DNA of 23,106 nt from a virus: positions 1 through 23,106 of IMG/VR virus record IMGVR_UViG_3300046697_000223, one strand, 5' to 3'. The notes beneath the pieces are model-generated. The model searched no databases. It saw only the letters and a list, made by a program, of their open reading frames with translations, and had not been told where the DNA came from. The translations under genes and the position numbers were made by a program. The first letter of the stretch is position 1. Every line of letters starts with the position of its first letter. Below, one piece after another: positions 8,055 through 22,714 of the stretch.

Positions 8055-8075
8055 AAAATCACCTATTTTTTATTA

Positions 8076-9860
8076 TTATTGTGTACAATCACAGACCCCA
8101 TCAGTGAGGACAAAACGACCCAAACCCCAAAATCTAAATTGGAAAGTTACTTCATTATACCGTCCTAGATTGTAATACTTAAATATATTTCTACGATGTC
8201 CCGTACTGTTTAAATAAATTCCCACTGGATTGCCAAAAGTAACGCCACCATCTGAAGACGTACTCAAATCAACCCTAGAATTTGATGTTGCTGATGCTAT
8301 AGCGGAGTAATCCATTACCTGATAGATAATCTGATCGCCATCATTATCTATTAAATAGTTTCCGTCATTATCTATTATATAAGAATCGACAGCGTAAGAA
8401 CCTATCTCTTCGCCAGTATCTTCACCTTGTTTTATAGGGAAAGTTAGATTATTTATAATAAATGGATTTCTATCAGGCATAGCAGATGGAGCGGTAATTA
8501 TAATCCTTGGTATCTCTTCTCCATCGGCGGTATTAATTTCTCCAGATAATTGATAAAGATTGTTATCATTAAAACTAATGAAGTAATAATCATTATTAAA
8601 ATATGCCACGCGTCTTGCTATATGATAGTTTTGATTTGTATCACAGAGAGTATAAAAACTCTTTGCATTAAAGTCATATATGTAAGTTACATTATCTTTA
8701 GGATCGGGAAATGTAATTTGATAAAACATATGCCCGGCTTGTTTAAAAATAAATCCGTGGGAGTTCTCAGGATTAACCATGGTAGATAATGTGTAATTTA
8801 TTCCATCAGATGATATCTGTTGAACACCACTGCCGGAACACATCATTATGGTAGGACCTGATTTTTCATTACTACCAAGCCAAACAACAAAGTCATCACT
8901 AGCTGCGATAGTAGCGGGATTTAAACATCCATAGTCTATGGTATAACCACTATTACGCTGATATGGGAATAACTGTAATCCAAGATCTGTCCATATCTCA
9001 GTAACTACAGAACCCATTATTAATATTTGCCCAGAACGCCCAGGAACACGCACACAGGCCAAACAACTGTCAGGTTTAGACTGGAATGTACCTATCTGCT
9101 GAGATGATGGGGTAAATCCACTGGTTATCGTAACGGCGAATGTAGCACCAATTCCATAGCCACCAGAAACAGGATAGGTAGTGTTAATATAACCAGATCC
9201 TGCGCCACTAGCAGCACTAGGGATATTAACTATTACAGTAGATACAGCAGTTCCACTAAGTCCTGTAACTGTTAGCGTCCCTTGATTCAACCCACCATTC
9301 ACCACAGTTAAAACGTCCCCAACATGATAACCAGAACCACCAGAAACTACAGCAGCGGTAGCAATGGATAATAGATTGAAATCTGAAAGTCTCCATTGTG
9401 GCAAATTATTTGCCGTGGCAATGAATCGATTATCTTGAAAGGTTACATAGCCAGCAGAGAAATCTAAAGCGAGTTTAGCAAAAGCGCTAGTTGAGTAATC
9501 ATAAATATAAATATCAGTTTTATCGCAAAATGCTATTTGATTCTGTAAATTTTCATCTATGAAAACATCTGTTGTTGTTGATCCAATGCTTGCAACTAGG
9601 GTGTATGTTAGATTGCCATAATTGGCGACAACGGTATAAATGTTTTGAGAGATGACTACAAATAGTTTATCAGAACGAGAGCTATAGAATATTCCGCGAC
9701 CCGTTCCATTGGTTATGGGAAAGGTAACAGCTTTTTCATGTCCGGCATAATCTATCATCCACCCATCAGACATAAACATGTTATAAACTTGTTCTGCCGA
9801 TATCTTCTTCGAGACACCGAATTTTGAACTACATGTAAGTTTGAGTGGTAATTGTGGCAT
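8076..9860 (-). CDS. P22 gp10-like packaged-DNA stabilisation protein with inserted beta domain
   Basis: A 594-residue protein starting MPQLPLKLTCSSKFG. It has beta-propeller-like stretches (GRGIFYSSRSDKLFVVISQN) and GQILIMGSVVTEIWTDLG, which is typical of the phage stabilisation family (gp10 of P22, 472 residues). In P22 gp10 sits below gp4 at the portal vertex and closes the filled head. This copy is ~120 residues longer. Much of the excess is residues ~165-250 (VVSGGSGYHVGDVLTVVNGG and a second GGYGIGATFAVTI half), a separate module common in phage structural proteins. Near residue 490 a short tandem, IIDNDGN then LIDNDGD, is present. It follows the gp4-like gene by 2 bp. Assignment is good; the insert has unknown function. 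Confidence 0.85.
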   Translation of the reverse strand: MPQLPLKLTCSSKFGVSKKISAEQVYNMFMSDGWMIDYAGHEKAVTFPITNGTGRGIFYSSRSDKLFVVISQNIYTVVANYGNLTYTLVASIGSTTTDVFIDENLQNQIAFCDKTDIYIYDYSTSAFAKLALDFSAGYVTFQDNRFIATANNLPQWRLSDFNLLSIATAAVVSGGSGYHVGDVLTVVNGGLNQGTLTVTGLSGTAVSTVIVNIPSAASGAGSGYINTTYPVSGGYGIGATFAVTITSGFTPSSQQIGTFQSKPDSCLACVRVPGRSGQILIMGSVVTEIWTDLGLQLFPYQRNSGYTIDYGCLNPATIAASDDFVVWLGSNEKSGPTIMMCSGSGVQQISSDGINYTLSTMVNPENSHGFIFKQAGHMFYQITFPDPKDNVTYIYDFNAKSFYTLCDTNQNYHIARRVAYFNNDYYFISFNDNNLYQLSGEINTADGEEIPRIIITAPSAMPDRNPFIINNLTFPIKQGEDTGEEIGSYAVDSYIIDNDGNYLIDNDGDQIIYQVMDYSAIASATSNSRVDLSTSSDGGVTFGNPVGIYLNSTGHRRNIFKYYNLGRYNEVTFQFRFWGLGRFVLTDGVCDCTQ

Positions 9861-9862
9861 AT

Positions 9863-10573
9863 TTATGGCTCAAAACCTTTACCAATATTTATCTGCGCCC
9901 AAGACAGCTGATTACGTTGGTTATACAAATCAATCTTTCTGCTCGATAAATCTATGACATTCATATCGGCTACATTATTTGAGATTTGATCAATAATATT
10001 TTGTACTTCCGGACTTATAGACATGCCATAAAAATTGCATATCCTTTTTACTAAAACATGACATAAATAATCACAATACCATCGGTCATATGTTAATAAT
10101 AAATCAGTTGTTAAATCATCAACAGTCACCGCCTCTAAACCGAATTTCCCCCAGACATGAAATGGAAATGCTTTGCATGGTAAAAAATACATGTACAAAT
10201 TGCATCCATTTAAACATCGCTCAAATGATGTGTCGAATGGGTAGGCTTCAATTCCATATATTTTTGTAGTGCTATGAAATTCTCGACGCGATTTATCGAA
10301 AGTTGCGTACCTAACTACAGAATCCATAAATGTTGCTGAGAACGGTTCCATCAAATTTGGAATGAAATACTTTTCCTGACCAATTACAGCATTGAATGTA
10401 TATTCCGAATAATATGGAATCATTTTTGTATTGCTAGAAGTAGCAGAAAGAACGGAATTCATCAAATCAAGACCACGCGTAATGTCGGCCCCGGTCACTG
10501 TCTGAAAATCAGGAGACCTTACCTTGCTTATATAAAATGCGTCAGTAATTAAATTATTTAAAGTATAACTCAT
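9863..10573 (-). CDS. P22 gp4-like tail accessory factor (head completion)
   Basis: A 236-residue protein beginning MSYTLNNLITDAFYISKVRS with DITRGLDLMNSVLSATSSNT and later YFIPNLMEPFSATF. This matches the P22 tail accessory factor family (gp4), whose members bind the portal ring after packaging and form the platform for gp10. P22 gp4 is 166 residues, so this one is longer, mainly in the C-terminal half. The gene lies between the putative decoration gene and the gp10-like gene, as expected for the neck module. A purine-rich Shine-Dalgarno (GGGGAG) is close to the ATG. P22 gp4 has been reported to have muralytic activity, but no such motif can be confirmed here. Confidence 0.82.
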   Translation of the reverse strand: MSYTLNNLITDAFYISKVRSPDFQTVTGADITRGLDLMNSVLSATSSNTKMIPYYSEYTFNAVIGQEKYFIPNLMEPFSATFMDSVVRYATFDKSRREFHSTTKIYGIEAYPFDTSFERCLNGCNLYMYFLPCKAFPFHVWGKFGLEAVTVDDLTTDLLLTYDRWYCDYLCHVLVKRICNFYGMSISPEVQNIIDQISNNVADMNVIDLSSRKIDLYNQRNQLSWAQINIGKGFEP

Positions 10574-10603
10574 ATACTCCCCATTATCAGATCAGTAAGA
10601 CAC

Positions 10604-10623
10604 CCGCCAAGTCTCCCTGGCGG
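10604..10623 (-). other. Intergenic hairpin before gp4-like gene
   Basis: A perfect 6-bp inverted repeat (CCGCCA / TGGCGG) with an 8-nt loop lies in the 97-bp gap between the putative decoration gene and the gp4-like gene. On the minus strand it is followed by GTGTCTTACTG, not a T-run, so it is not a standard intrinsic terminator. It could be an mRNA-processing or stability element lowering neck-protein output relative to head proteins. Confidence 0.4.
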
Positions 10624-10670
10624 ATGAATATAATATCAAACCAAACACTAAACATAGTAAGTAAATCTAT

Positions 10671-11564
10671 TTACACACAATAGCCGAACGATTTCACGTA
10701 AATTACGGCTGTATCTGACGTAGGAGTTGTTCCGGTAGCTTTAATACTAACACTGGCAACACCGCCAACATTCAAGAATGCTAAAGATGATAAGTCTGCC
10801 CATTGATGAACAGCAGCAACGACACCACTCATTCTAGCCTCATTACCAGTACTGCCTGTTGGTTGTACATAAAGAACATTTCCAGCGGTAAATGGGGTAT
10901 AATCAACCGTAAAGTTAACATCAGTTTTGCCAATAGGAGCAACACATGCAGTCAAAGGAAGAGCTACATAAGAAGCAGTCAAAGCAGAAGAACCAGTTGT
11001 TAAAGGAGCGTCATAAACAAATTTACGATAGCCATAGTCGCCAAAAGTATATGACAATAGGAAATGTGAACTACCATCAGTTACTTTAACATCTACTAAA
11101 CGGAAACTATCATAACCGTATGGTAGTATAGGAAGTACATTAGCTGGATTAAAAGCAAGATCAGGGTATATACATTTTGTTGAAACTAATGCAGCAGGTT
11201 TATTAAACCCATTAGAATCACCAATTACATATACGTAATAGAAAGTAGACGCAGCTAAAGCACCAGTATCTAAACCATTAACACCAACTGTAGTACAATC
11301 AATTACCAAAGATGTGCGCGTAAATACACCGGCTGGAAATGTTATAGTGTCGCGTATAACCATGTCAATATTGTTTAATATATCACTGCATGCGCCTTCA
11401 CTCATAGTTAATGAGGTGTTAGGAGTAGTTGCATTCAATGTAACGTTAAGACCACGAATATAACCAACTGGATTGCGAGCTATTGGTTTGTTAATAGCAG
11501 GAAAAATTGGTTCTGCAACATTAACTGGGAATGGCATAATGTCTAAAGAATTTGGAAATGTCAT
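10671..11564 (-). CDS. Putative head decoration / head-fibre structural protein
   Basis: A 297-residue protein with the segment IARNPVGYIRGLNVTLNATT, followed by beta-rich, Thr/Ser/Val-rich sequence to the end (AVIYVKSFGYCV). The pattern YIxGLxVxLxATTPNTxLxxSxG is of a kind often seen in phage virion proteins of unknown role. It lies between the coat gene (separated only by an endonuclease gene) and the gp4-like gene, a place where decoration or head-fibre proteins are often encoded. No enzymatic motif is visible. It could instead be a minor tail protein. The start at 11564 is an ATG 11 bp after the endonuclease gene ends. Confidence 0.55.
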   Translation of the reverse strand: MTFPNSLDIMPFPVNVAEPIFPAINKPIARNPVGYIRGLNVTLNATTPNTSLTMSEGACSDILNNIDMVIRDTITFPAGVFTRTSLVIDCTTVGVNGLDTGALAASTFYYVYVIGDSNGFNKPAALVSTKCIYPDLAFNPANVLPILPYGYDSFRLVDVKVTDGSSHFLLSYTFGDYGYRKFVYDAPLTTGSSALTASYVALPLTACVAPIGKTDVNFTVDYTPFTAGNVLYVQPTGSTGNEARMSGVVAAVHQWADLSSLAFLNVGGVASVSIKATGTTPTSDTAVIYVKSFGYCV

Positions 11565-11574
11565 AATATTTACC

Positions 11575-12222
11575 TCAAGTTATTAAATTGTTAATATCAT
11601 TTAAAGATTTGTTAGCTTTCTTAACAGCCTCTCTTTTAATAGCTGCCTTCCTATATCTTTCGATAGATTCAGGACTACGTACTTTACCTAAAGCATTCTT
11701 ATTACCAGTAGATCCAGCCCTAAGTTTTTCTTTTGTCTCAGAACTAACTTTATGACCAACAAGACTAGCAGTAATCTTAGCCTTATGCTCTTCGCTAAGC
11801 GTTTTACCTGTGTGAGCAATGCTAAGTTTGGCTTTGTGATCATCGCTAAGAGTTCGTCCTAAATTATATGTGTTACCTTTATGTAACTCACTAATTCTAG
11901 ACTTAGCCTCATCGTTAACAATCCAGCCCTTGCCTCTACCTTTATTATGCTTATCTTGCTGATTATCAGCATTGGTACCAATCCAGAGATGTGCAGGATT
12001 TACACACCAAGGATTATCACATTTATGACATACAAACATTCCATCTGGAATCTCACCAACATAAAGTTCATAAGATATTCTATGAGCTCTATACCGATTA
12101 TTATCTGTATAAAATGTACCGTAACCCTTTTCTGTCTTGGCACCAGTCCAAACCCAACAACCATCTTTAGGGAGTCTGTGAATCTTGCCTTCAAAATCTA
12201 ATCTATTTATATTTTTTATCAT
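11575..12222 (-). CDS. Free-standing HNH homing endonuclease with NUMOD3 repeats
   Basis: Using the ATG at 12222 gives 215 residues; a TTG at 12258 could add 12, and neither start has a strong Shine-Dalgarno. An HNH_3-type nuclease core spans residues ~21-90: CWVWTGAKTEKGYG, then YRAHRISYELYVGEIPDG, then VCHKCDNPWCVNPAHLWIGT, with the His, Asn and metal-binding Cys/His expected for this family. Three NUMOD3-type DNA-binding repeats follow (~113-160: GRTLSDDHKAKLSIAHTGKT, SEEHKAKITASLVGH, SSETKEKLRAGSTG). The tail is lysine-rich. Such genes spread by cutting unoccupied sites, here presumably near the coat-gene end in related phages. It is inserted between the coat and decoration genes without disrupting either. 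It is not needed for virion assembly. Confidence 0.9.
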   Translation of the reverse strand: MIKNINRLDFEGKIHRLPKDGCWVWTGAKTEKGYGTFYTDNNRYRAHRISYELYVGEIPDGMFVCHKCDNPWCVNPAHLWIGTNADNQQDKHNKGRGKGWIVNDEAKSRISELHKGNTYNLGRTLSDDHKAKLSIAHTGKTLSEEHKAKITASLVGHKVSSETKEKLRAGSTGNKNALGKVRSPESIERYRKAAIKREAVKKANKSLNDINNLIT

Positions 12223-12270
12223 AAATTGCAAAATACCATGGGGCAATTTATGAGTCAATATCTATCACTA

Positions 12271-13626
12271 CTATGCCGATGCAACGTTACCAGTTAAGGG
12301 CAAACAGAAACGTTGGCTATATCTTGATAATAACAATCCGCCCCATATGACGTCATTCACCAACCACTTTTTATTTTGTCCGAATACAGCACCATAATAC
12401 ATACGTAACGATACTTTAGTTTCATCGTCGGTATCTACTGATGTGGTAAATGGGTGTTCATTATCTAATCTCGGTACGGCTATGTAAAATGCTTTGCTAC
12501 AGATCCTAAGTCCACAACGATGCGATCCAACGAATTGTACAGTCATACCAGCTTGAATTGTTCCGCTAATATTCTGCAATGCATTACCGACTACACTACA
12601 TAAGCCTTGGCCTTCTGTATGAGTATTAGTAATAATATTTACTACTACAGCACCAGCATTAGAAGAAGCATCAGCAATTACACGGAATTGAACTGGCTGA
12701 TTAGTCTGCATGTGACCATAAAAAGTTAATGCATTAATGTTGGAAGCAGGTAGGAACCAACCCATATCACCAGCAGCAACAGCGATAGAATGACTACCAC
12801 CACCACTAGACAATGTTAACTGTGTTACGTTAGTACCAGTTGGATCGTTAGTGCTTACAACTGTACAAACCGTGCCAGCAACACCGAAAGCACCAGCGAT
12901 TTGAACAGGCAAGTAGTTTGATCTGTAGTATTTAGTACGAGGTGAACCAAATTCACCGACTAACCAACTTTGCGCGGCCTCATCATTACGGATCGGTACG
13001 AATTGGTTTAAGCCTGATCCAATAATTGGGGAATAATAGTTAGTAGGTAATACGACACAATGATCATCGTTAGGTGCGCCCATAGAAATAAAATCTGACA
13101 TGCTCTGATCTAAAGCTTGGTAGCTTAAAAGGCCTGTAGCGGTGCAATCAACGAAACGAGTTGGTCCGGAAAGATATTGTTCTTGACCATAAGTTGGGGA
13201 ATCTAGGCGCATATCGATCGCAGAAGAGTTAACATGCATAGCAATAGATTGCTCAACCTTGCTTCCTAATTCTGAAATCATACCCTTACCGATCATTTTC
13301 CAGAAACCATCATGATTCGTATTGAAAATTCTTTGTTGGTTTGTAACTGCAATAGCGACGTTTGCGGCAGAGATAACAGAAAGGTGAGCAATGTTCTGAC
13401 GAACTGGTTGAGCCGATACTATGAGCCCAGCGTTAGCAACACTAGCCATTGGCAAAGCGATTGCAATGGTATCACCTAAATTTGCAGGTGTCTTTTTTTC
13501 GAAATCAACAAATTCATGATTGCAAATGTCTGATATAAAACAGTTTTGGTTCAAAAATCCAGGTAATTGTGCATCAGCGTTATACGTCCTTACTTGCTGC
13601 AAAAAATTAATCGTAGGGTTAGACAT
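12271..13626 (-). CDS. Major capsid (coat) protein, P22-like
   Basis: A 451-residue protein, close to the 430 of P22 coat. The N-terminus reads MSNPTINFLQQVRTYNADAQ and goes on with KTPANLGDTIAIALP, then NIAHLSVISAANVAIAVTNQ, a layout like P22-type HK97-fold coat proteins. The gene order scaffold-coat-(decoration)-gp4-gp10 supports it. A strong Shine-Dalgarno (GAGG, 8 nt before the ATG) fits high expression. An extra domain is likely in the centre (residues ~240-330, beta-rich, GTNVTQLTLSSGGGSHSI), as in P22 coat with its I-domain, though this is not shown by sequence alone. Forms the icosahedral shell on the scaffold. Confidence 0.8.
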   Translation of the reverse strand: MSNPTINFLQQVRTYNADAQLPGFLNQNCFISDICNHEFVDFEKKTPANLGDTIAIALPMASVANAGLIVSAQPVRQNIAHLSVISAANVAIAVTNQQRIFNTNHDGFWKMIGKGMISELGSKVEQSIAMHVNSSAIDMRLDSPTYGQEQYLSGPTRFVDCTATGLLSYQALDQSMSDFISMGAPNDDHCVVLPTNYYSPIIGSGLNQFVPIRNDEAAQSWLVGEFGSPRTKYYRSNYLPVQIAGAFGVAGTVCTVVSTNDPTGTNVTQLTLSSGGGSHSIAVAAGDMGWFLPASNINALTFYGHMQTNQPVQFRVIADASSNAGAVVVNIITNTHTEGQGLCSVVGNALQNISGTIQAGMTVQFVGSHRCGLRICSKAFYIAVPRLDNEHPFTTSVDTDDETKVSLRMYYGAVFGQNKKWLVNDVIWGGLLLSRYSQRFCLPLTGNVASA

Positions 13627-13692
13627 TATTTGTTCCTCAAAAATTATTAGTTGTCAATATATTTTTTGGATGGAACAGTAAATGTCAGATCA

Positions 13693-14445
13693 TCAAAATC
13701 TAAACGCTTTGTTACTACGCTTAGACGACATCGACAACTCACCACCACCCAAACCTAAACTAGATGGTTTCAGTTGACTTGACGGCACTGGTGCTTTTTC
13801 TTTAGCAAGAGCGTCTTTGTTTCTTTTAATCGAGTTAGAAATACCTTGCAATTCTTTAAATCCGTTTAATGGATTTAGATACGTGACAGCCAGCAAATTA
13901 GCTACCTTGACAGGGTTATCAGAAAAATCATCTAAGACATCAGCAATATTATCAAGAGAATTCAACATTGGTATCAGTGGATGATTTGTGGGTAAGTTTC
14001 CTATTCCCGATGATTCGATCTTATCAGCTTTACCACTAGCCTGGATCTTCATCAAAAAATCATTCGTCATCTGCTGTTGTTGAAAATGTTGCTGCTCTTG
14101 CTCTTGCCTCTGTCTAAAATTCTGATAGAGCTGTTCCTCGTTAAAGCCCTTATTTTCGATTTGATTGGTGGAGGGTGATGACTGTACAGCCCCTGTACCG
14201 ATCGCCTCGTTTTGGGTGCTTAAATTCGGTTTAGCACCATATCTTGACTCGTATTCTGCCTTAACCTCTGCCCTAACCCTTTCCTCAGTCCGCCTTTTTG
14301 TGTCAGCAGAAATAATATTAACTTGGTCCTGATTGAAAGTTGTTGGTTCAGATTTTACAACCGTATCTACAACATTGCTTTGCTGTACTGCAGGTTCTGC
14401 CTGTGGTGCAGCGGTATTCTCGATAGAAATATTTTCGTCAGTCAT
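13693..14445 (-). CDS. Scaffolding protein, P22 gp8-like
   Basis: A 250-residue, highly polar protein directly upstream of the coat gene. The N-terminal part is acidic and disordered (MTDENISIENTAAPQAEPAV). The middle is a Gln/Glu-rich helix (RQRQEQEQQHFQQQQ). The end is short and basic (KRSNKAFRF), as in P22 gp8, where a basic C-terminal helix-turn-helix binds coat. The element SSQLKPSSLGLGG also occurs in related podophage scaffolds as xSQxKPS. It directs procapsid assembly and leaves before maturation. The start has a Shine-Dalgarno AAGGG 7 nt upstream. Upstream DNA carries repeated operator-like motifs. Function is by position and composition. Confidence 0.75.
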   Translation of the reverse strand: MTDENISIENTAAPQAEPAVQQSNVVDTVVKSEPTTFNQDQVNIISADTKRRTEERVRAEVKAEYESRYGAKPNLSTQNEAIGTGAVQSSPSTNQIENKGFNEEQLYQNFRQRQEQEQQHFQQQQMTNDFLMKIQASGKADKIESSGIGNLPTNHPLIPMLNSLDNIADVLDDFSDNPVKVANLLAVTYLNPLNGFKELQGISNSIKRNKDALAKEKAPVPSSQLKPSSLGLGGGELSMSSKRSNKAFRF

Positions 14446-14463
14446 ATGAAACCCTTTTGATTT

Positions 14464-14552
14464 TTAACCGCGTCAGCGTAATTTTTGCCAATCTGTGCTT
14501 TTACCGCAACACATGCGTAGGCGTGTACTTTAACCGCAGTACGGGCGTAGGT
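14464..14552. promoter_or_regulatory. Operator-like repeats upstream of scaffold gene
   Basis: Three copies of ACCGC-Nx-GCGTA lie at 14467-14480, 14503-14519 and 14533-14549. The spacer N is 4 bases in the first and 7 in the other two; these two are exactly 30 bp apart and share GCGTAGG. Copy 3 is extended by TTTA and TAAA arms into an imperfect palindrome. They sit 20-110 bp before the scaffold ATG. They may bind a late-gene regulator. Confidence 0.5.
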
Positions 14553-14591
14553 AAATATAATAAGATTATTTTAAGCTTAGTTTGGATCGTG

Positions 14592-14864
14592 TCAAGCTTT
14601 TGTTTTATCTAGTTTCTTAAATCCATGCCTTTTAGCATTGTCACTTAGTTTTTGTCTTTGCTCATCACTCAATCTTCCTAACATAACCTTACCTCGAAAA
14701 TGAAACAATGGACAGGTCTCTATCTCGCAATCATCAGGATGTCCCTCAAAACCTAAGCATTGAACACAGAAATATTTAATAGCATCAGTCCTAGATAATT
14801 TTTCAGTAGTAAATATCTGTCCATTTTTGTCTTTCAAACTTTGAATTTCGTCAATTGCTGTCAT
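14592..14864 (-). CDS. Small four-cysteine (putative zinc-binding) phage protein
   Basis: With the ATG at 14864 it has 90 residues; a TTG at 14879 would add five. Four cysteines (C33, C36, C46, C51) lie in YFCVQCLGFEGHPDDCEIET followed by CPLFHFRG. A CxxC...C...CPLxxFR arrangement is widespread in small phage proteins of unknown function. It is probably a zinc-stabilised fold, possibly DNA-binding. The C-terminus is basic (RHGFKKLDKTKA). It is the first minus-strand gene left of the replication cassette, and appears to start the head-gene transcript from a promoter within the origin region. Function not recognised. Confidence 0.6.
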   Translation of the reverse strand: MTAIDEIQSLKDKNGQIFTTEKLSRTDAIKYFCVQCLGFEGHPDDCEIETCPLFHFRGKVMLGRLSDEQRQKLSDNAKRHGFKKLDKTKA

Positions 14865-14888
14865 GATTATGTTCTGCAATAGATTTTG

Positions 14889-14907
14889 GTCCGTTAAAAA
14901 TACGGAC
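14889..14907 (-). other. Leader hairpin upstream of four-cysteine gene
   Basis: A perfect 6-bp inverted repeat GTCCGT / ACGGAC with a 7-nt loop lies ~25 bp upstream of the ATG at 14864, between the predicted promoter and the gene. It could act in mRNA stability or translation control. It lacks the T-run of an intrinsic terminator. Confidence 0.35.
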
Positions 14908-14941
14908 GGATTAATATTTAACCCTCGTAAAACTATCCGGC

Positions 14942-14971
14942 AGTATACTTACCACCCCTCGGTCAAGTAAA
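14942..14971 (-). promoter_or_regulatory. Candidate promoter for the head-gene transcript
   Basis: On the minus strand TTTACT (-35, 4 of 6 to consensus) is followed after 18 bp by TATACT (-10, 5 of 6). It lies ~75 bp upstream of the first minus-strand gene and reads toward the scaffold and coat genes. The match is moderate, so it is a candidate only. Confidence 0.4.
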
Positions 14972-15197
14972 GACGTTTTTAATATGATTGGTCCGGTATT
15001 TATTTGGATGGTGTTTGTTTTGTAAATCATAAATCAGAGAATCTCATTTTTTTGCTTTTTTGCTTTTAAATTTGATAAAAAAATTCCTATTTTTCTCTTT
15101 GAAAACTTTATATCTTTACTTTGAAAGCTTTGGGCTTTTAAGGTACCATCAAAATATATAGGTTTTATGCGGTCTGTAGCGAAGGGTGGTACCTCCA

Positions 15198-15292
15198 ACT
15201 ATTGGGTTTGCCCCAACTACTATTGGGTTTGCCCCAGCTTTTTTACTCCAACTATTGGGTTTGCCCCAACTACTATTGGGTTTGCCCCAGCT
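15198..15292 (+). repeat. Four 21-bp iterons in two tandem pairs (replication origin)
   Basis: Copies at 15198-15218, 15219-15239, 15251-15271 and 15272-15292 share the core TATTGGGTTTGCCCCA and alternate in ending AACT or AGCT. Period within a pair is 21 bp (two helical turns); the pairs are 53 bp apart. The core is a partial dyad (TTGGG...CCCCA). Location just upstream of rep fits binding sites for the Rep initiator, for both replication and copy control. Confidence 0.9.
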
Positions 15293-15330
15293 TATTATAT
15301 GCTTGACAACATCAGCATATAATATACTCT
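15293..15330 (+). promoter_or_regulatory. rep promoter overlapped by 11-bp inverted repeat
   Basis: A perfect inverted repeat TATTATATGCT / AGCATATAATA (15293-15303 and 15314-15324, 10-bp spacer, centres 21 bp apart) overlaps a consensus -35 TTGACA at 15303-15308. The -10 is less clear; TACTCT (15325-15330, 16-bp spacing) is one option. The arrangement suggests autorepression by Rep, or another repressor, as is common for Rep_3 plasmids. Confidence 0.6.
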
Positions 15331-15397
15331 AATATAGACTTGCAGATTGGAGCAAATAATATAGAATAACAAAACTATAAACCTGAAGGGAATCTTT

Positions 15398-16219
15398 ATG
15401 CAAAATGATAAAAAAGTAATAAAGGTGGCGGTAGTGTCAAATTTAGTAGCAGAAGCAAAACAGGCAAGACCATATAGCGTTCAAGAGCAAAGATTGTTGT
15501 TATGGATATTAAGCCAAACACACGAAGATGATTGGTTTAAAGGCGGTGAGTATATTGAAGACGGTATTTATCTTGGAAAAGAAATATCTATTTCAGGTAA
15601 AGAATATATCAAAGATATGAATTTAGATATCAAAGATATGCCAAAAGAAATATACAAGGTATGCCTGAGTCTATCAGAAAGAGTAATACATATAAGACAG
15701 AAAGAAGAATGGATTATGGTACATTGGTTTTATAGTATATCTTACAGTGAAATTGATCACATGATTAAGTTCAAGCTTCATCCTGAAATAATACCACATA
15801 TTTTTTCATTAAAATCTAATTTTACCCAACTGGAAATATCATATATTTTTAAACTAGAATCAATGTATGCAATAAGGCTTTATATGATTTTAGCTTGTAA
15901 TAAAAAATATGGTAAAACTTTTACACTCGATAGATTTAAAGACATGATGGGAATAAAAGATAAGAAGACCTATAGGTTATACGGAAATATAAAACAAGAA
16001 GTATTAAATATAGCAAAAAAAGAAATAAATGAAAAAACTGATATACAATTTGATTATGAAGAGAACAAAGCCGGTAGGGAAGTTGTATCACTGAAGTTTA
16101 AAGTATTTAAAGGGAAGAGAATAAATAGTAAATCAATAAGATATAAAGACGAAATCAAAAGAATAAAAGCTCCATTATGCGATGAAGCTAAAAAATTCTT
16201 TGGTAGGGTAAAAAAATAA
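15398..16219 (+). CDS. rep: Rep_3-family plasmid replication initiator
   Basis: A 273-residue protein of the Rep_3 (RepB/RepE/Pi-like) family, which binds iterons and opens the origin for theta replication. It has the tandem winged-helix layout: YSVQEQRLLLWILSQT near residues 26-41; FTQLEISYIFKLESMYAIRL at 142-161, the classic start of the second winged helix; FTLDRFKDMMGI at 175-186; then VLNIAKKEINEKTDIQFDYE at 202-221. Length is usual for the family. Shine-Dalgarno GAAGGGA lies 6-7 nt before the ATG. It is on the plus strand, opposite to all late genes, with iterons directly upstream. Confident in family; copy number and host range unknown. Confidence 0.95.
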   Translation: MQNDKKVIKVAVVSNLVAEAKQARPYSVQEQRLLLWILSQTHEDDWFKGGEYIEDGIYLGKEISISGKEYIKDMNLDIKDMPKEIYKVCLSLSERVIHIRQKEEWIMVHWFYSISYSEIDHMIKFKLHPEIIPHIFSLKSNFTQLEISYIFKLESMYAIRLYMILACNKKYGKTFTLDRFKDMMGIKDKKTYRLYGNIKQEVLNIAKKEINEKTDIQFDYEENKAGREVVSLKFKVFKGKRINSKSIRYKDEIKRIKAPLCDEAKKFFGRVKK

Positions 16220-16239
16220 AAATAAAGAAGAGACAAAAA

Positions 16240-16301
16240 GCACCCATACACAAACTTCCTTTTTATAATCTAATAATAATCCCGCAAAACCAGATGGGTG
16301 C
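16240..16301. repeat. Perfect 8-bp inverted repeat between rep and the next gene
   Basis: GCACCCAT (16240-16247) and ATGGGTGC (16294-16301) are exact inverted copies 46 bp apart in the 106-bp gap after rep. They may form a large RNA stem controlling the downstream small gene, or bind a dimeric protein. No recombination-site consensus was recognised. Confidence 0.45.
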
Positions 16302-16325
16302 AAATACCGCTTAATGAACTAACAA

Positions 16326-16547
16326 ATGAAACAATCGACTCCTAACATGACACAATATTTCTTTGATTTCTTAGGTAGCATAGAGAAACAGTGCACTATA
16401 TTTATAGAAGGAAAAGAGAAGTTTTTAAAAGATGCGGCGTTAACCAAAGAACAAGAGGCAGAAATATCTTATTGTATAGAAGCTGCTACAGAATTATTGA
16501 TGGAGATAAGAGAGTTTAAGGATAGACAAAAGATAAGAGAGGAATAA
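16326..16547 (+). CDS. Small acidic helical protein downstream of rep
   Basis: A 73-residue protein (MKQSTPNMTQYFFDFLGSIE), rich in Glu, Lys and Leu and predicted helical through residues 20-70 (LTKEQEAEISYCIEAATELL). It is the only other plus-strand gene that looks real. It lies 106 bp after rep and just before a bidirectional terminator, so it is probably cotranscribed with rep. The Shine-Dalgarno is weak. A role in copy control or plasmid maintenance is possible from position, but nothing in the sequence proves it. Function not recognised. Confidence 0.5.
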   Translation: MKQSTPNMTQYFFDFLGSIEKQCTIFIEGKEKFLKDAALTKEQEAEISYCIEAATELLMEIREFKDRQKIREE

Positions 16548-16567
16548 ACCAAACAAAAATAAAAACT

Positions 16568-16594
16568 AATTCGGCCCACAATGTAGACCGAATT
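16568..16594. terminator. Bidirectional terminator between convergent genes
   Basis: AATTCGG / CCGAATT (7-bp perfect arms, 13-nt loop) sits between the plus-strand acidic gene and the minus-strand basic gene. It is followed by T-rich sequence on both strands: GTTTTTATTTTTG on the minus strand, and AT-rich DNA ending TTTCTTTTTT on the plus strand. It would insulate the rep unit from the portal transcript. Confidence 0.7.
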
Positions 16595-16607
16595 ATAAAT
16601 AAATTAT

Positions 16608-16802
16608 TTATTTCTTTTTTCTTAATTTGCTGAGCGTGACTGCTAAAGTTGCCCGTTTTCTCTCTACAGGGTTCTTGCTATGCTCGGCTTTTTCAAGTTT
16701 CTTTTCAGGGATTTTTTTACCCTTAGGGACTTTTAATTCTTCTCTAAGAGCGCCTTTTTTCATATGCATTGCTTGTATAAAATTTTTCTTTTTTGCTACC
16801 AT
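16608..16802 (-). CDS. Small basic phage protein downstream of portal
   Basis: With the ATG at 16802, 9 nt after a GGAG Shine-Dalgarno, it has 64 residues; an ATG at 16808 is only 3 nt from it. The sequence KKNFIQAMHMKKGALREELK, then VPKGKKIPEKKLEKAE, then RATLAVTLSKLRKKK matches a common small phage protein pattern (KxxFIQxAIxxPGxLxxxLxVPxGxKIPxxKLxxA). That family often sits beside portal or capsid genes and has no assigned function. It is strongly basic, so nucleic-acid or capsid-interior binding is plausible. It follows the portal stop by about 15 bp and ends at the bidirectional terminator. Confidence 0.68.
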   Translation of the reverse strand: MVAKKKNFIQAMHMKKGALREELKVPKGKKIPEKKLEKAEHSKNPVERKRATLAVTLSKLRKKK

Positions 16803-16817
16803 TTTCATATACTCCGA

Positions 16818-18989
16818 TTATTCATTAGTAAAATGTGGCTCGCCAGTTGGGCGATGTCCTGTACTTATCTTATGCATCAACTCATGTTGTTTTAATCCAT
16901 GCTCTGCGTGGTCTTTTGCATGCCGATGGTTCATGTCAGTCGCAGCATGTGCTTTATCAATTATAACTCGCGCCATATCTGCGTCATTCTTTTCTTGCTG
17001 AAGAGCCATGTAACCTTCTTCTGTCTGAGTCTTGGCTATTAACTCAACTCTCTTTAGGGCTAATTCCTCCTGTGCTAGATTTAACTTTGCCTCTTCAAGT
17101 TTAGCCTGCATCTCGTATTTTTGAGCTTCAATTTGATTTTGTTGCCCCTTCATTTGTATTTCATCCTGATGGTTTTTTTCTCGCATCATAATTGGATTTG
17201 GCTGAGGGTTTTGTTGTGCTTGCATGGCCTGTTGTTTCTGCTGCTCAAGTTCTTGCATAAATTGCGCAGCCAAAAGTTTAAGCTGATCCTGGCCCTTCAT
17301 ATCGATATTATCGATCAATACTTTCAATCCTTTGGTATTTATGAACTGGCTGAATACTTGAGAAGCCTGACTCAACTGTATTATCTGCTGAAGTGCTTGA
17401 GTTTTTTGCGCTATAAAAGATGTACCGGCCTCTACCTTAATGTTGAAAGTGTTGTCTTCATATTTTAAAGAAGGCTGACCTTCACCATTAACCGGATGAT
17501 ATTGTTGATTACCTTCTTTGTCGATCATGGGAATTGACATAGGAGCAACATAAACTTTAGGAATAAGACCTAATATTATCTTTGCTACTTGGTTAAGACT
17601 TAGAATATATCGGTTTATAAATGGTTTTGCAGTTGCACTACTGTGAATAGCCCCTTGAACTATAGCCGCACCGGATAGATTGTTGCCACCATTGATACCA
17701 AGTTGGCTATCATAACTACCCAATATGTTTTGGAACACCTGAGGAAGGCTAGACCATAATGCCAACATCTCAGGAGGAAAAGCGTTTCTAGCCATCTGTT
17801 GTGGGGGTGGATTAGGTTTGTCTGGGTTATTATTGTTAAAAGCTCTATATACTAACGTATCATACTGCTGAGGTTCGGTAATATGATGTACATAATTAGG
17901 ATCAATTGACTCAGATGCTATAAGTATCTTATGCCTGCTTAAATTCTGACATTCATCTGCAAGAGCCGCTCCTAGATTATTAAATAATTTCTGCACACCT
18001 ATACAGTTCATTAGATATGGGCGTGTCATCTGCTCGGATTTAGATCCGCCATCACTTAGAACAACCGAACTGCCATCAAACCAAACCAAAGGAAGTGAAT
18101 CAGAGGTATCTATCTCTTCTTTACTAAGAATCGTATTACCGATCAATTGATATCTAATTATCTTAGTGGTATCCACTTCTCTTTCATTAATAATCACGGG
18201 CGCAGCTTCTAGCGAGTTAAGAATTTTCTCTTCTATTAAAGTTGCATATTGTTTCTTCTCGATCACTTCACCCGTAGATAGTTCCACAATCTTGATCTTT
18301 TTTTGTTGTTTTTCATAATAATCTGCCACTACCACAACCTCCATATCATGAATTTTGAAAAACCAACTAAATTTTTCTTGATTACTAAACACAACGTCTT
18401 TAATTTTATGATCAAACATTTTCTCAAATTTTTCTTTGCTGTATGGGAATAACTCGAAACAGTACTCACTATCAGATTTGCTAGGTTCTCTAGATAATGG
18501 GTCAAATCCTGTTAAAGTTGGATCGTACGACTTCGCCCAAACTATTTTTTGTTTAAATGTTTTACCTTCATCGTACTTAGCGTAAACCTTGGCTGCGCTG
18601 AAGCCGCCACTTGTGATTTCGTCCCATAACGATGTTTGGGTGCCATTTCTTGACGCTTCATCCATTACAAACCTAACATAACCTTCAATAAGCTCGCGTT
18701 GCTGTTCTATCTCTGGGGTGACATTAACGCCGTCTTGAATACTTACCATGATGCCAGGTTGTTGTTCAGCAAACTCACCGCGAAGTCTGGATAAAAATGC
18801 CTCAGATAGATTAAATTCTAGGATAGGAATATTAAGCGCAGATAATGAATTTTTAGCCTTGGTAGATAAGGTAGATTTGAATACGAACTCCCTGGAGGTG
18901 CGATATCTTTCGATATTATTCCAATTAGTTTCCATCGATAATTCTACGTTTTTAGTTATTCTAAGAATATCATCTTTATCGGTTTTCAT
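16818..18989 (-). CDS. Portal protein, P22 gp1-like
   Basis: A 723-residue protein, nearly the same length as P22 portal (725). The N-terminus (NWNNIERYRTSREFVFKSTL) and the segment FNLSEAFLSRLRGEFAEQQP fit the P22-type portal family. The C-terminal ~170 residues are Gln/Glu/Lys-rich and helical (ELEQQKQQAMQAQQNPQPNP onward, then AKLEEAKLNLAQEELALKRV), like the long helical barrel of P22 portal that reaches into the head. The last ~30 residues are His-rich (HRHAKDHAEHGLKQHELMHK), which is unusual. It forms the dodecameric ring through which DNA enters and leaves. It lies downstream of the large terminase across a 98-bp gap that carries parS. Confidence 0.85.
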   Translation of the reverse strand: MKTDKDDILRITKNVELSMETNWNNIERYRTSREFVFKSTLSTKAKNSLSALNIPILEFNLSEAFLSRLRGEFAEQQPGIMVSIQDGVNVTPEIEQQRELIEGYVRFVMDEASRNGTQTSLWDEITSGGFSAAKVYAKYDEGKTFKQKIVWAKSYDPTLTGFDPLSREPSKSDSEYCFELFPYSKEKFEKMFDHKIKDVVFSNQEKFSWFFKIHDMEVVVVADYYEKQQKKIKIVELSTGEVIEKKQYATLIEEKILNSLEAAPVIINEREVDTTKIIRYQLIGNTILSKEEIDTSDSLPLVWFDGSSVVLSDGGSKSEQMTRPYLMNCIGVQKLFNNLGAALADECQNLSRHKILIASESIDPNYVHHITEPQQYDTLVYRAFNNNNPDKPNPPPQQMARNAFPPEMLALWSSLPQVFQNILGSYDSQLGINGGNNLSGAAIVQGAIHSSATAKPFINRYILSLNQVAKIILGLIPKVYVAPMSIPMIDKEGNQQYHPVNGEGQPSLKYEDNTFNIKVEAGTSFIAQKTQALQQIIQLSQASQVFSQFINTKGLKVLIDNIDMKGQDQLKLLAAQFMQELEQQKQQAMQAQQNPQPNPIMMREKNHQDEIQMKGQQNQIEAQKYEMQAKLEEAKLNLAQEELALKRVELIAKTQTEEGYMALQQEKNDADMARVIIDKAHAATDMNHRHAKDHAEHGLKQHELMHKISTGHRPTGEPHFTNE

Positions 18990-19059
18990 ATCTTGACTTT
19001 TGGATTTGTTAAGTTTTTCTTAATTTTCCGCTAGTTCTATGATATTTGCAAGTTATTAT

Positions 19060-19075
19060 AGTTTCACGTGAAACA
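19060..19075. promoter_or_regulatory. parS centromere-like site (ParB binding)
   Basis: AGTTTCACGTGAAACA contains the perfect 14-bp palindrome GTTTCACGTGAAAC. It matches the conserved bacterial chromosomal parS consensus TGTTNCACGTGAAACA at 15 of 16 positions; only the first T is an A. It lies in the gap between the large terminase and portal genes. ParB proteins load at such sites and ParA moves them to daughter cells. No parA or parB is in this window. Confidence 0.8.
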
Positions 19076-19087
19076 TAAAACTATTTA

Positions 19088-20638
19088 TCACCATCTATTT
19101 ATTCTGTCATTAGCTACATTAATCTGCGATCGAAGTATTTTATCTGCTTGATCTTTATTATTAACTTGAGCATTACTCATCAAATATAAAGCAGTTTTAT
19201 CAATAAATGTCATACGAACAGCATCAAATACTGAGTCGACAATATCCGAACGGCGCTGTGTTCCGGCTGCATTTATTTTTATCATATGCTCTATACACAT
19301 CTTAGTATGAGGAGCGCCATAAGGTAATGATATTAATTTTTGACTTATATATTGCTGCATAGATATATGACGATTTATCTTGCTTCCGCTCGCAGATGTT
19401 CTATCTACCGAGATTACATTCAGTCCTTGGATAGTTTCTAATACGCTAATTAATGTCACGCCCGTGCTTTTCTTTTCTATGGCTGCGAATGCAGGTATTT
19501 TAACCGAACATGCAGAGGCATAAAATTGCATAAACTCCGCCTGTAAGTCTTTAGGCTGTACAAATATTTCTACGCAGTTGAGCCAATGCAAACCATATAA
19601 ATCGGTTTCTTTTCCAAAATGTTCTATGCGATATATACCCCATAGGCTAAATACAGTGGCATCGTTATACGTTTTATCCGTCTCGGCAGTATCAGCGGTA
19701 ATAAACGTCATTAAAATATTTGGCATTTTTTCTAAAACAGGGAAATGCTCGGATTTGAATAAAGATGCAGTATCTCCGGTAGGGTTTTGTTGATATTGGC
19801 ACTCAAAGACAAAAGGTTGCAGCTCTCTTAAGTTTCTCAGTTCTTGAATATTCATCAATTGAGGGCAAATAGGGTTATTGGAGGAATCTATAGCTGGTAA
19901 TATTACCGTATCCCATCCGCCTTGAGTGATAAGATGGCCCGGCAAATCATCCTCATGTATTCTTTGGCCTATAATGCAAATGCCCGTTCTTTCTGCGTCA
20001 TTCCTTCTGCTTTGCAAAGTGTTATAATACCAATTCTTTATACCTTCTCTAACAACCTGACTTGAAGCTTCGCTTGGCTTGCCAATATCGTCTACAACTA
20101 AAATTCCCCCAAAGCGATCACAATTAAAGATACCGGCTGCCCTACCTGTTATCGTGCCGCCAGCCCCCACCGCAATTACAGAACCTCCAGCAGTTGTTAT
20201 AAATGCATCTTTGGCTTGAGAATCGTCTCTAAGTTCCACGCCAAACATTTTTTTATAGTATGGAGTAGATATTATTTGCTTTATTTCAGCAGTAGCAAGA
20301 CAAGCTAAATCATGAGAATAGGAAACATATAAAAAATTACAATCTGGATATCTGGCTAAACTCCACGCTATAAAATTCATCAATAAAGTTGTTTTACCCA
20401 TTCTTGGGGGCACATTTATTATGGTTTTAAATGATTTTCTTTCAAATAATTTATATAAAGCTTTTGCTATAATCGCATAGTGATTTTCACGTCCTATAGG
20501 ATTTCCCAAAACAAAATCCCTCCCTGTTCTAAGCTTATAAAATACACGCGTGAAAGCTAGTAAATCATCAAGCAACTCAGCCTTTACACTAGCCGCTAAT
20601 AATATCTCCTCGTCACTCATCCTAACTTCACTTGCCAT
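19088..20638 (-). CDS. terL: Terminase large subunit (ATPase/nuclease)
   Basis: A 516-residue packaging motor protein. Walker A is PPRMGKTT (77-84), and Walker B is ILVVDD (179-184) followed by IGKP. The RNase H-like nuclease acidic residues are visible at D316 (FITADTAETD), E388 (AAIEKK) and D465/D468 (RRSDIVDS). It cuts concatemers and drives DNA into the head through the portal. The gene overlaps the upstream zinc-ribbon gene by 11 bp; a second in-frame ATG at 20620 is possible. The small terminase is three genes upstream, with two small zinc-ribbon genes between. Confident. Confidence 0.93.
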   Translation of the reverse strand: MASEVRMSDEEILLAASVKAELLDDLLAFTRVFYKLRTGRDFVLGNPIGRENHYAIIAKALYKLFERKSFKTIINVPPRMGKTTLLMNFIAWSLARYPDCNFLYVSYSHDLACLATAEIKQIISTPYYKKMFGVELRDDSQAKDAFITTAGGSVIAVGAGGTITGRAAGIFNCDRFGGILVVDDIGKPSEASSQVVREGIKNWYYNTLQSRRNDAERTGICIIGQRIHEDDLPGHLITQGGWDTVILPAIDSSNNPICPQLMNIQELRNLRELQPFVFECQYQQNPTGDTASLFKSEHFPVLEKMPNILMTFITADTAETDKTYNDATVFSLWGIYRIEHFGKETDLYGLHWLNCVEIFVQPKDLQAEFMQFYASACSVKIPAFAAIEKKSTGVTLISVLETIQGLNVISVDRTSASGSKINRHISMQQYISQKLISLPYGAPHTKMCIEHMIKINAAGTQRRSDIVDSVFDAVRMTFIDKTALYLMSNAQVNNKDQADKILRSQINVANDRINRW

Positions 20639-20927
20639 CTTTTACGCCAGCTCTTGATAATATAATTTTACTCTTCCAATCTCCTGGACCACTTCGAGTC
20701 CAAGGAGATACATTAACTTTACCTGTAGGAAAACCACTTCTTAACCTATCAGCGTCTTTTCTGCTGATTAACATCCTGCTAGATTTAGGTGCCGTAGGAT
20801 TTGCCCACGCTTGGAAGTAGCATACTGGACAACTAATCATTAAAACCTTTTGGACGTCAATAAAACCCTTTCCTTGGCACAATAAACATTTTGACGACGC
20901 TGTACCGTCCTTGTCATTTTCTTTCAT
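20628..20927 (-). CDS. Small zinc-ribbon protein B (99 aa)
   Basis: A 99-residue protein with SSKCLLCQGKGF (C14, C17) and SCPVCYF (C33, C36): a CxxC-N15-CxxC zinc ribbon that resembles one DnaJ-type CxxCxGxG element. The rest is basic and Ser/Arg-rich (RMLISRKDADRLRSGFPTGK). It overlaps the preceding gene by 4 bp (ATGA) and the large terminase by 11 bp, so it is coupled to packaging genes. The upstream neighbour has the same cysteine spacing and is a likely paralogue. Possible role in packaging-site recognition or regulation; not known. Confidence 0.65.
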   Translation of the reverse strand: MKENDKDGTASSKCLLCQGKGFIDVQKVLMISCPVCYFQAWANPTAPKSSRMLISRKDADRLRSGFPTGKVNVSPWTRSGPGDWKSKIILSRAGVKDGK

Positions 20928-21235
20928 TTTTTCCCCTTCTTCTTTCTATTGGCGGCTATATCCCTTACTCTTTCTAGGATCTTATCTCTAGAATTGCCTA
21001 AGTGTAGTGGTTTAGATTCTTTTGGCTCGTCTATGATAATGACTTCCTGATCTTTTTCTTTTTCTACAATATTCCTATACAAGTCGCATAGGTAATCATT
21101 AGTTTTTATATTTTCAGATATCGAAGATTGTGCAGGGAAACAAGCGGGACACCTAATTCTCATTCCGTTTGTGGTGCTAACCATCGTTGAACCACCGCAT
21201 AGTGAGCATTTACTTGTGTTCGATAGCTCTGACAT
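20924..21235 (-). CDS. Small zinc-ribbon protein A (103 aa)
   Basis: The frame opens at 21295, but the ATG at 21235 has a GAGG Shine-Dalgarno 8-9 nt upstream and gives 103 residues starting MSELSNTSKCSLCGGS. Cysteines C10, C13, C29 and C32 form CxxC-N15-CxxC (CSLCGG and CPACFP), the same spacing as the next gene. The C-terminus is lysine-rich (DIAANRKKKGKK). It overlaps the small-terminase gene by 26 bp and the next zinc-ribbon gene by 4 bp. Likely a nucleic-acid-binding accessory to packaging, by context; function not recognised. Confidence 0.65.
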   Translation of the reverse strand: MSELSNTSKCSLCGGSTMVSTTNGMRIRCPACFPAQSSISENIKTNDYLCDLYRNIVEKEKDQEVIIIDEPKESKPLHLGNSRDKILERVRDIAANRKKKGKK

Positions 21236-21947
21236 TTCTTTTTTCCTCAAGAATTTTAAAAGTAAGTTCGTTAATTTTTTGTATATCCGTATCATTGTTA
21301 AGTGTTGCTACTATTGTTGATGTTGGCGCGATATGACCTTGCATTGCATTAAGTTCTTTAATTGCCGCAATGGCCATGCCTCCATATTGTCTATCCACCT
21401 TTCCTTTTTTATCAATAACTGATTCCACTAAATTAACCAGTTTATTAACCTTCCATTCAAAAGTAGACCTTAAATCGTTTTCATACATATTTTGCTTTCC
21501 TTTTAAGTATCTCTGAACATTAGGTTTTTTAAAAGATGCGTATGCACTGCATTCAACATAACCAGCGGCTTGACTGGCTAACCTAATGTTCCCTAAAATT
21601 AAATATGCATCACACAATTTTTGTTGCATAGGAGTAATGAAACGCTCTGGCATCTCTTCTTGTAATAACTTTTTGTTATCATGTCTTAATTTTTTTACTA
21701 ACGTTTGTCTTTTTATGCGTATTTTTTCTAATTCTATAAGATCTTGCCCAGACATCCCTTTGCTTTTTAAATAATCCAAGGCATTAACACTAGATAAAAC
21801 TATACTTGGTCTCGCTATCGTATCTTTAGCATATCCCGCTTTCTTTACTGATAATCTAGCGTCTTTAGTTATCAAATAAAGATCACAGGCTTTTTTCTGC
21901 CTATCGTCAAATGGATGTTGTTTAGAAGTACATTTGATTTTGAACAT
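21210..21947 (-). CDS. terS: Terminase small subunit with two Terminase_2-type modules
   Basis: A 245-residue protein. Residues 105-151 (TPMQQKLCDAYLILGNIRLA, then SQAAGYVECSAYASF and PNVQRYL) match the small terminase DNA-binding module (TPxQxxFxxxYLxxxNxxxAAxxAGY...NPxVxxYL). A second, weaker copy lies at 15-63 (DRQKKACDLYLITKDARLSV, KKAGYAKDTI, ALDYLKSK). The C-terminal part is helical. It recognises packaging sites and recruits the large subunit. The position at the start of the packaging operon agrees. Duplication of the module is unusual. Confidence 0.82.
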   Translation of the reverse strand: MFKIKCTSKQHPFDDRQKKACDLYLITKDARLSVKKAGYAKDTIARPSIVLSSVNALDYLKSKGMSGQDLIELEKIRIKRQTLVKKLRHDNKKLLQEEMPERFITPMQQKLCDAYLILGNIRLASQAAGYVECSAYASFKKPNVQRYLKGKQNMYENDLRSTFEWKVNKLVNLVESVIDKKGKVDRQYGGMAIAAIKELNAMQGHIAPTSTIVATLNNDTDIQKINELTFKILEEKRNVRAIEHK

Positions 21948-21954
21948 TATGCAT

Positions 21955-22155
21955 TTACCAACCTTTGCTCATCATTTGACTTTCAAAATCAGGAGCATTT
22001 GGGTCTAGTTCTTTTTGCGGTGCAAATACCATGAATCTAAAATCAAGGTTATCATCATGGGCGGCTTGAAGTGGTGCAAAATGAGCAGCTCTTCTTAATC
22101 CTTGTGGAGGAACATCGCTAACGAAATCTAATTCTTTACCGTTCAATGCTTTCAT
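21955..22155 (-). CDS. Small protein, first gene of packaging operon, leader-like N-terminus
   Basis: A 66-residue protein starting MKALNGKELDFVSDVPPQG and ending FESQMMSKGW. A Shine-Dalgarno AAAGG lies 8 nt before the ATG, and a strong promoter is just upstream. Its first 12 residues resemble the leader of the nearby microcin-like gene (M-K-x-L-x-x-K-E-[LI]-[DE]-x-V), but no Gly-Gly site follows. It contains no cysteine and no membrane segment. It is 7 bp upstream of the small-terminase gene. It may be a virion or packaging accessory, or a derivative of a leader peptide. Function not recognised. Confidence 0.55.
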   Translation of the reverse strand: MKALNGKELDFVSDVPPQGLRRAAHFAPLQAAHDDNLDFRFMVFAPQKELDPNAPDFESQMMSKGW

Positions 22156-22187
22156 TTTATCTACCTTTATTTGTAATGGTTATAAAA

Positions 22188-22216
22188 ATGATACATTGGG
22201 GAGGTGAAGGTGTCAA
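22188..22216 (-). promoter_or_regulatory. Strong promoter of the packaging operon
   Basis: On the minus strand, a consensus TTGACA (-35, 22211-22216) is followed after exactly 17 bp by TATCAT (-10, 22188-22193, 5 of 6). The expected start is near 22181, about 25 nt before the ATG of the 66-aa gene. A 12-bp palindrome GTCAATCTTGAC (22212-22223) overlaps the -35 and may be an operator. Confidence 0.75.
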
Positions 22217-22302
22217 TCTTGACTAGTTTAAACAACATTAGGGTAGCGCTATATCTTCAATGCGAAGTCGGTAGAAACGTAGACCTTATTTTGAAAGAGT
22301 AA
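22210..22302 (+). CDS. Possible 30-aa ORF on plus strand with strong RBS
   Basis: GTG at 22210 is preceded 5 nt upstream by GGAGG (22200-22204, within GGGGAGGTGA) and opens a 30-codon frame ending at TAA 22302, beginning (M)SILTSLNNIRVALYLQ. The Shine-Dalgarno lies inside the spacer of the opposing packaging promoter, so the match could be chance. No plus-strand promoter is clear. Low confidence. Confidence 0.2.
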   Translation: MSILTSLNNIRVALYLQCEVGRNVDLILKE

Positions 22303-22341
22303 TAAATATACGTGTACTTTTTTTCTGGACGTATTTAGTTA

Positions 22342-22683: not shown

Positions 22684-22714
22684 TTCATTGCTCTAATTTA
22701 GAAATAGAAATTAT

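Follow-up and report, generated by a model that had tools for sequence, protein, structure and literature searches.

A Rep_3 initiator with iterons between the portal and scaffold genes of a P22-like phage, and its possible role in plasmid maintenance

Background

Phage P1 is the textbook parallel for a phage carrying a plasmid replicon, with separate plasmid and lytic initiators. Phage-plasmids have been described as a class (PMC10879196), and plasmids of Arsenophonus combine Rep_3, ParM and phage genes (PMC7157526). A 30-kb episome of Legionella, LME-1, was considered as a possible relative from its description (PMC5071653). Here we analyse a linear virus record of 23,106 bases from a metagenome in IMG/VR (IMGVR_UViG_3300046697_000223, here called the window), which has no end repeats and in which an initial annotation had recognised a plasmid replication cassette inserted into a P22-type morphogenesis region.

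Results

All clearly identified phage genes of the window are on the minus strand and follow a P22-type order, with TerS, TerL, portal, a scaffold-position gene and coat followed by a homing HNH gene, genes of the head-closure and ejection types and tail-fibre genes. The genes that matter here are the following:

21210-21947, minus strand, TerS (phrog_51)
19088-20638, minus strand, TerL (phrog_38)
16818-18989, minus strand, P22-type portal gene (PF16510, E 2.9e-66; phrog_156, E 1.6e-58)
16608-16808, minus strand, gene for a 66-aa Lys-rich protein (66–71% identical homologue behind the portal in L010/L014/L015 and L012)
14592-14879, minus strand, 95-aa late-strand ORF with a Cys motif, inside the slot on its scaffold side (ORF list)
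13693-14445, minus strand, scaffold-position gene (38–54% identity with the pre-coat gene of close relatives along most of the gene)
12271-13626, minus strand, major coat protein gene (37–41% identical to the L004/L005 coat genes, about 80% in close relatives)

The identity of the scaffold gene comes from its homologue in L005, which matches phrog_8865 (head scaffolding), and the coat of the same record matches phrog_283 (major head protein); the portal-scaffold-coat order after TerS-TerL is as in the relatives. The combination looked for in a phage-plasmid, TerS, TerL, portal and coat together with a Rep, is present on the single contig. The rep gene is on the plus strand of a late operon that otherwise reads entirely from the minus strand, and it lies between portal and scaffold, as the initial annotation had it, and the adjacency of these two genes in P22-type elements was likewise confirmed, as they are 13–90 bp apart in the records. 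The position is not exactly between the two genes, since the 66-aa and 95-aa frames intervene. The first of these, coding for a basic protein, is the conserved last gene ahead of the cargo slot on the portal side, and the second had no homologue in the relatives examined. Scans of the window for Rfam families and tRNAs found nothing.

Three further features of the late region are recorded here. An HNH/NUMOD homing endonuclease gene lies directly 3′ of the coat gene (11575-12258, minus strand) and is present in some close relatives, not in L090 or L097. In the tail-fibre gene, units of about 190 bases are repeated almost exactly (88% alike; window 1-600 and L007), which probably explains why the contig ends there. 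Beside TerS, the window (22342-22683, minus strand) and L014 (5301-5606, minus strand) each encode a small protein whose leader is of the double-glycine, bacteriocin-like type (MKTLSKKEIECVNGGD...); the two proteins are 39% alike, and similar leaders occur elsewhere in the clade.

The cassette itself contains the following elements:

15398-16219, plus strand, Rep_3 (RepE/RepA-type) initiator, 273 aa, intact WH1 and WH2 (PF01051, E 3.3e-24; PF21205, E 4.2e-19)
15199-15289, plus strand, four exact 17-bp iterons CTATTGGGTTTGCCCCA (starts 15199, 15220, 15252 and 15273)
15030-15119, no strand assigned, 90-bp A+T-rich stretch (80–82%) adjoining the iterons, candidate DNA unwinding element
16326-16547, plus strand, 73-aa ORF 3′ of rep (ORF list)

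The rep frame is open, both winged-helix domains score above cut-off (Rep3_N, E 3e-24; Rep3_C, E 4e-19), and the protein is homologous by sequence to the F RepE structures in the PDB, so that the proposed Rep_3 initiator stands. The same is true of the four proposed iterons, which are spaced 21/32/21 upstream of rep on the same strand, with 0.06 matches expected by chance and four copies in none of 100 shuffles. As read from the sequence, the cassette combines an initiator, upstream iterons and an A+T-rich stretch in the way that iteron plasmid origins are usually built. No DnaA box was found in the cassette at one mismatch or fewer, and the 73-aa ORF had no match to Pfam, PHROG or plasmid records. 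The G+C content of the cassette (31%; rep 28%) is below that of the late genes (37–38%), which suggests that the cassette is foreign in origin.

Rep matched 4028 plasmid records and 19 entries of the phage collection, with a Rep from a Piscirickettsia salmonis plasmid as the best plasmid match (31% identity). The phage matches include the deposited phages D6 and KS14, which are known as plasmid prophages. Also among the 19 is PP798960.1 (L190), labelled Acinetobacter phage AB1I1L, which resembles a plasmid fragment, with a Rep_3 and 22-bp iterons beside universal-stress and sulphate-permease-like genes. Among other viral contigs, both Rep and the iteron were found only in a second contig of the same phage; a profile built from three Rep sequences reached 12 further viral contigs, none with a P22 portal. 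The cassette DNA had no match in plasmid records. We considered whether the cassette is a satellite and rejected this, as it has no integrase and is only 1.7 kb in size. A comparison with known phage-plasmid sets had been proposed for both Rep and TerL; the TerL matches on Acinetobacter and Herbaspirillum plasmids are in integrase-bearing records for which no P22-type relation was shown. The P22-like "plasmids" in PLSDB (Salmonella NZ_CP043906 and E. coli NZ_CP063485) are excised prophages that carry an integrase and lack a plasmid Rep, and no P22-type element with a plasmid Rep was found in the plasmid collection by a search that reaches moderate similarity only.

The interpretation that we favour, and hold to be somewhat more likely than not, is that an iteron plasmid replicon was captured in the portal-scaffold slot by a P22-like podophage and allows its genome to persist in plasmid form. 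Rep would bind the iterons, open the A+T-rich stretch and load the host replisome; after infection and circularisation, the genome would be kept as a low-copy plasmid while the late genes are silent, with lytic replication presumably driven by a separate early-region system, as in relatives. The element had been called a phage-plasmid, and of that claim a plasmid-type iteron replicon in a P22-like phage is present; persistence as a plasmid would be the most economical meaning of such a replicon in a P22-like phage.

The boundaries of the cassette and the start of rep carry the following candidate signals:

16567-16595, minus strand, intrinsic terminator with a 13-bp stem, 3-nt loop and T-rich tail (hairpin scan)
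15294-15323, no strand assigned, perfect 9-bp dyad ATTATATGC-N12-GCATATAAT around TTGACA, candidate rep operator or promoter
15348-15364, minus strand, degenerate inverted iteron (12/17) within the leader of rep, tentatively an operator half-site
14568-14595, minus strand, sigma-70-like promoter TTGACA-16-TAAAAT (11/12) at the slot edge, upstream of the scaffold gene (consensus match)

The terminator hairpin (16595-16567) is strong in the late direction, where it is predicted to end portal-side late transcription, and weak in the plus direction, where the T-tract is only TAAATAAATTATTTATTTC, so that of the bidirectional terminator initially proposed one direction stands. No terminator was found at the corresponding place in L014, L090 or L097. 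The dyad has its arms at 15294-15302 and 15315-15323 and TTGACA at 15303, and 7 of 200 shuffles fold equally well. Between the iterons and rep there is no sigma-70 match with 16–18 nt spacing, possible -10 elements being 14 or 21 nt off, and promoter-like matches in the cassette region number 11, against 11.3 in shuffles. The autoregulated promoter that had been assigned to rep was thus not recovered; the dyad and the degenerate inverted iteron are a candidate operator, nothing beyond, at which Rep might control its own synthesis.

The divergent promoter that had been placed on the other side of the cassette is weak at 14971-14942 (9/12); a good promoter is present at 14595-14568, which belongs to the scaffold gene. 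This promoter has counterparts in L014 (14046-14073, 11/12, identical) and L097 (8270-8297, 10/12, near-identical), and since it is kept in these relatives with other cargo, late transcription probably restarts past the slot across the clade; in the window it is predicted to restart transcription for scaffold and coat. Insulation from late transcription, as initially claimed, is therefore in part only a feature of the cassette itself: the terminator was found in the window and not in the three relatives named, and the scaffold promoter is kept by relatives around different cargo.

The window ends before the early region; of the relatives in which that region can be read, the closest is described here. 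The two records of this relative (G005/L175 and G009/L014) are 99.5–100% identical where they overlap, with 63% identity to the window phage in portal and 80% in coat. Its early region, from tail fibre to TerS, contains genes for an endolysin, a holin-like protein, CsrA, a Phd antitoxin and an XRE protein, as well as a Sak4-like ATPase, an SSB-like protein, a PLD-like nuclease and a lambda-O-like HTH_36 initiator, and no integrase was found in the two records. O-like initiators were located in L175 (10832-11878), in L008 (4921-5835, with DnaB adjoining) and in L185 (952-1824). Of 50 relatives surveyed, 29 of which have records of 35 kb or more, a tyrosine integrase was present in one, resolvase-family recombinases in five and ParA above cut-off in three, and an S24 repressor in none. 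Judged from these gene contents, the clade is mostly integrase-less with lysogeny by integration rare, plasmid-type partition is sporadic in it, and it may be largely virulent, given the missing S24 repressors and the rarity of integrases. No integrase or chromosomal flank occurs within the window fragment. The visible ~25 kb of the window phage, whose early region lies beyond the right end, likewise contains no repressor, no ParA and no pair of toxin and antitoxin genes.

These results bear on a first alternative, in which Rep is the lytic initiator of a virulent phage and the iteron origin fires early in infection, with no plasmid state. Most members of the clade do look virulent, being mostly without integrases and S24 repressors, and the early region of the window phage, outside the contig, could lack an O-like gene. 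However, the relatives have O-like initiators in their early regions (L175, L008 and L185), none of them with a Rep_3, and the cassette lies in the cargo slot, distant from the early genes. We consider this alternative unlikely, and plasmid maintenance remains the preferred explanation.

Some members of the clade showed other features of note. The distant member L185 (IMG/VR record G051, 41.4 kb) encodes a ParA at 3900-4912 (PF13614, E 7e-47), followed by an 82-aa gene of ribbon-helix-helix look, and has the O-like initiator and no integrase, which on gene content makes it an independent phage-plasmid candidate. ParA is also present in G029 and G041. A CsrA homologue (PF02599, E 4e-24) is located in the lysis/early region of L175 (4895-5125, minus strand), with tblastn matches in seven further loci of the clade.

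Searches of bacterial genomes gave no match for the portal and eight for the coat profile, mostly contigs of MAGs, with a single isolate, Legionella maceachernii. The distant relative in a chromosomal contig of L. maceachernii ATCC 35300 (NZ_FUXJ01000015.1; L171/L187/L188) has RecT, YqaJ, SSB and DnaB-like genes, recognised by eye from translations, and a tyrosine recombinase and a hybrid histidine kinase gene nearby. No Rep relative was found in seven of the coat-match genomes, by a search without a positive control that carries low weight. From the coat relative in L. maceachernii, the nearest Rep in P. salmonis plasmids and the CsrA of a relative, we guess that the host is a gammaproteobacterium of the Legionella/Piscirickettsia kind.

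Profile searches with portal and coat yielded about 150 viral loci, comprising a close clade (portal 61–64% and coat about 80% identical) and a broad clade (33–43% identity). Portal and coat were in order in 90 records, and in these the pre-scaffold interval has a median of 1.7 kb (range 268-6604 bp) and is at least 1 kb long in 75. The slot contains an ORF of 100 aa or more on the opposite strand in 38/90 records, against 66/450 intervals in a rough control of simple base shuffles. The occupants include a ParE-like toxin (PF15781, E 4e-31) with a ParD-like antitoxin (PF11903) in L014, a multi-HTH protein in L090, a sigma-70-region-4-like protein identified by eye in L097 and an excisionase-like HTH gene in L005. 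The portal-scaffold gap is thus a general cargo slot across the clade, and the Rep cassette is one of the things carried in it. None of 100 related records contained PF01051, and Rep therefore entered this phage or its close kin; the records point to a single acquisition and not to a Rep lineage, and other phages of the clade have the slot too. An undescribed lineage defined by this insertion point, as first suggested, is not supported by either result, and a Rep absent from close relatives, which the initial annotation had itself named as a refutation, is what was found as regards a lineage. Selection on Rep is not measurable because no close relative shares it.

The same survey suggests a second alternative, namely that the replicon is passive or selfish cargo from a host plasmid, of use for incompatibility or of none, and does not sustain the phage. 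Unrelated accessory genes fill the slot in relatives, and Rep is private to one phage and foreign in base composition, all of which this explanation accommodates; on the other hand, an intact initiator with iterons exceeds what iteron-only incompatibility needs, and a working replicon carried by a phage would not easily stay silent. We regard this alternative as unlikely too, and a replicon that sustains the phage as a plasmid as the better account.

Contigs 100% identical to the window were found in two other metagenomes, covering 1-15627 (L002/L007) and 16714-22825 (L003). The first carries late genes, all four iterons and Rep up to residue 76, adds 1,668 bases on the left, and shows that the left junction (late genes, iterons and 5′ end of rep) was independently assembled. 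The segment 15628-16713 is present in one assembly only, and exact patterns used to extend the right end and right junction had no match. An assembly chimera of phage and plasmid from the sample is very improbable: both other contigs do end in or beside the cassette (15627 and 16714) with the segment between assembled once, yet the join of late genes, iterons and the 5′ end of rep recurs unchanged in a second metagenome, the cassette has its right boundary immediately after the conserved 66-aa gene, at the point from which the slot of relatives extends, and no plasmid record matches the cassette DNA.

Discussion

Several lines of evidence point to maintenance of the phage as a plasmid, namely the layout of Rep, iterons and A+T-rich stretch, the kinship of Rep with plasmid initiators and its foreign G+C content. 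To these may be added the integrase-less close relative, whose slot holds a ParE/ParD-like pair, a device of the plasmid-stability type, the low frequency of integrases (1/50) alongside ParA (3/50), and the precedents for Rep_3 in genomes with phage genes (L202 and pArsFIN11). Against it stand the linear record without end repeats, the lack of partition, toxin-antitoxin and repressor genes in ~25 kb with the early region outside the contig, the count of 0/50 for S24, the missing DnaA box, the origin of 15628-16713 from one assembly and the restriction of Rep to this phage among its close relatives.

If the replicon works, one insertion of 1.7 kb into a cargo slot of the late operon gave the phage a plasmid life, the origin of phage-plasmids can be tested in a clade in which the replicon is missing from the other members, and a P22-type virion is added to those of the phage-plasmids. 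A wider proposal, which we offer as speculative and rather unlikely, is that a largely integrase-less P22-like clade, with some members linked to Legionella, collects devices for plasmid maintenance one by one (Rep_3 with iterons, ParE/ParD, ParA), with the gap between portal and scaffold as their docking site and cargo exchange allowing a switch from lytic to plasmid-temperate life.

The replicon resembles those of iteron Rep_3 plasmids (F/RepE, pPS10/RepA, Piscirickettsia and Acinetobacter) in having the same two winged-helix Rep, direct iterons upstream on the same strand and an A+T-rich stretch. It differs in its location inside a phage late region, in the arrangement of the iterons in two pairs (21/32/21) and in a protein identity of about 30%, and its repeat sequence is different from those of the P. 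salmonis and Acinetobacter records compared. Accessory genes on their own strand between morphogenesis genes are also known as cargo (morons) in P22-like late operons, whereas the cargo here is a replicon, and portal and scaffold of classical P22-type relatives are separated by only 13–90 bp.

Morphogenesis genes and a plasmid initiator are likewise combined on one element in phage-plasmids such as P1, D6/SSU5 and the groups analysed by Pfeifer and Rocha (PMC10879196). In contrast to these, the element described here has a P22-type podovirus virion, as judged from its genes, and rep within the late operon, and no partition gene, repressor or circle was seen in the partial record. The Arsenophonus nasoniae plasmid pArsFIN11 (PMC7157526) also has Rep_3 and phage genes on one element, but plasmids of this type are complete and circular, use ParM for partition, carry genes of the contractile-tail type and have rep outside the late operon. 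Two IMG/VR records of 37–39 kb, L201 and L202 (IMGVR_UViG_3300031088_000006, 39 kb; 886-15271), have Rep_3 close to podovirus-type head genes, and differ in their T7-like portal and head genes, the presence of ParA and the lack of a P22 portal; they also encode an Ant antirepressor, and on gene content are a second podovirus-type phage-plasmid candidate. Rep_3 on phage genomes is already known, and what is new here is not a demonstrated lineage but the combination of a P22-type virion with an iteron replicon in a slot of the late operon.
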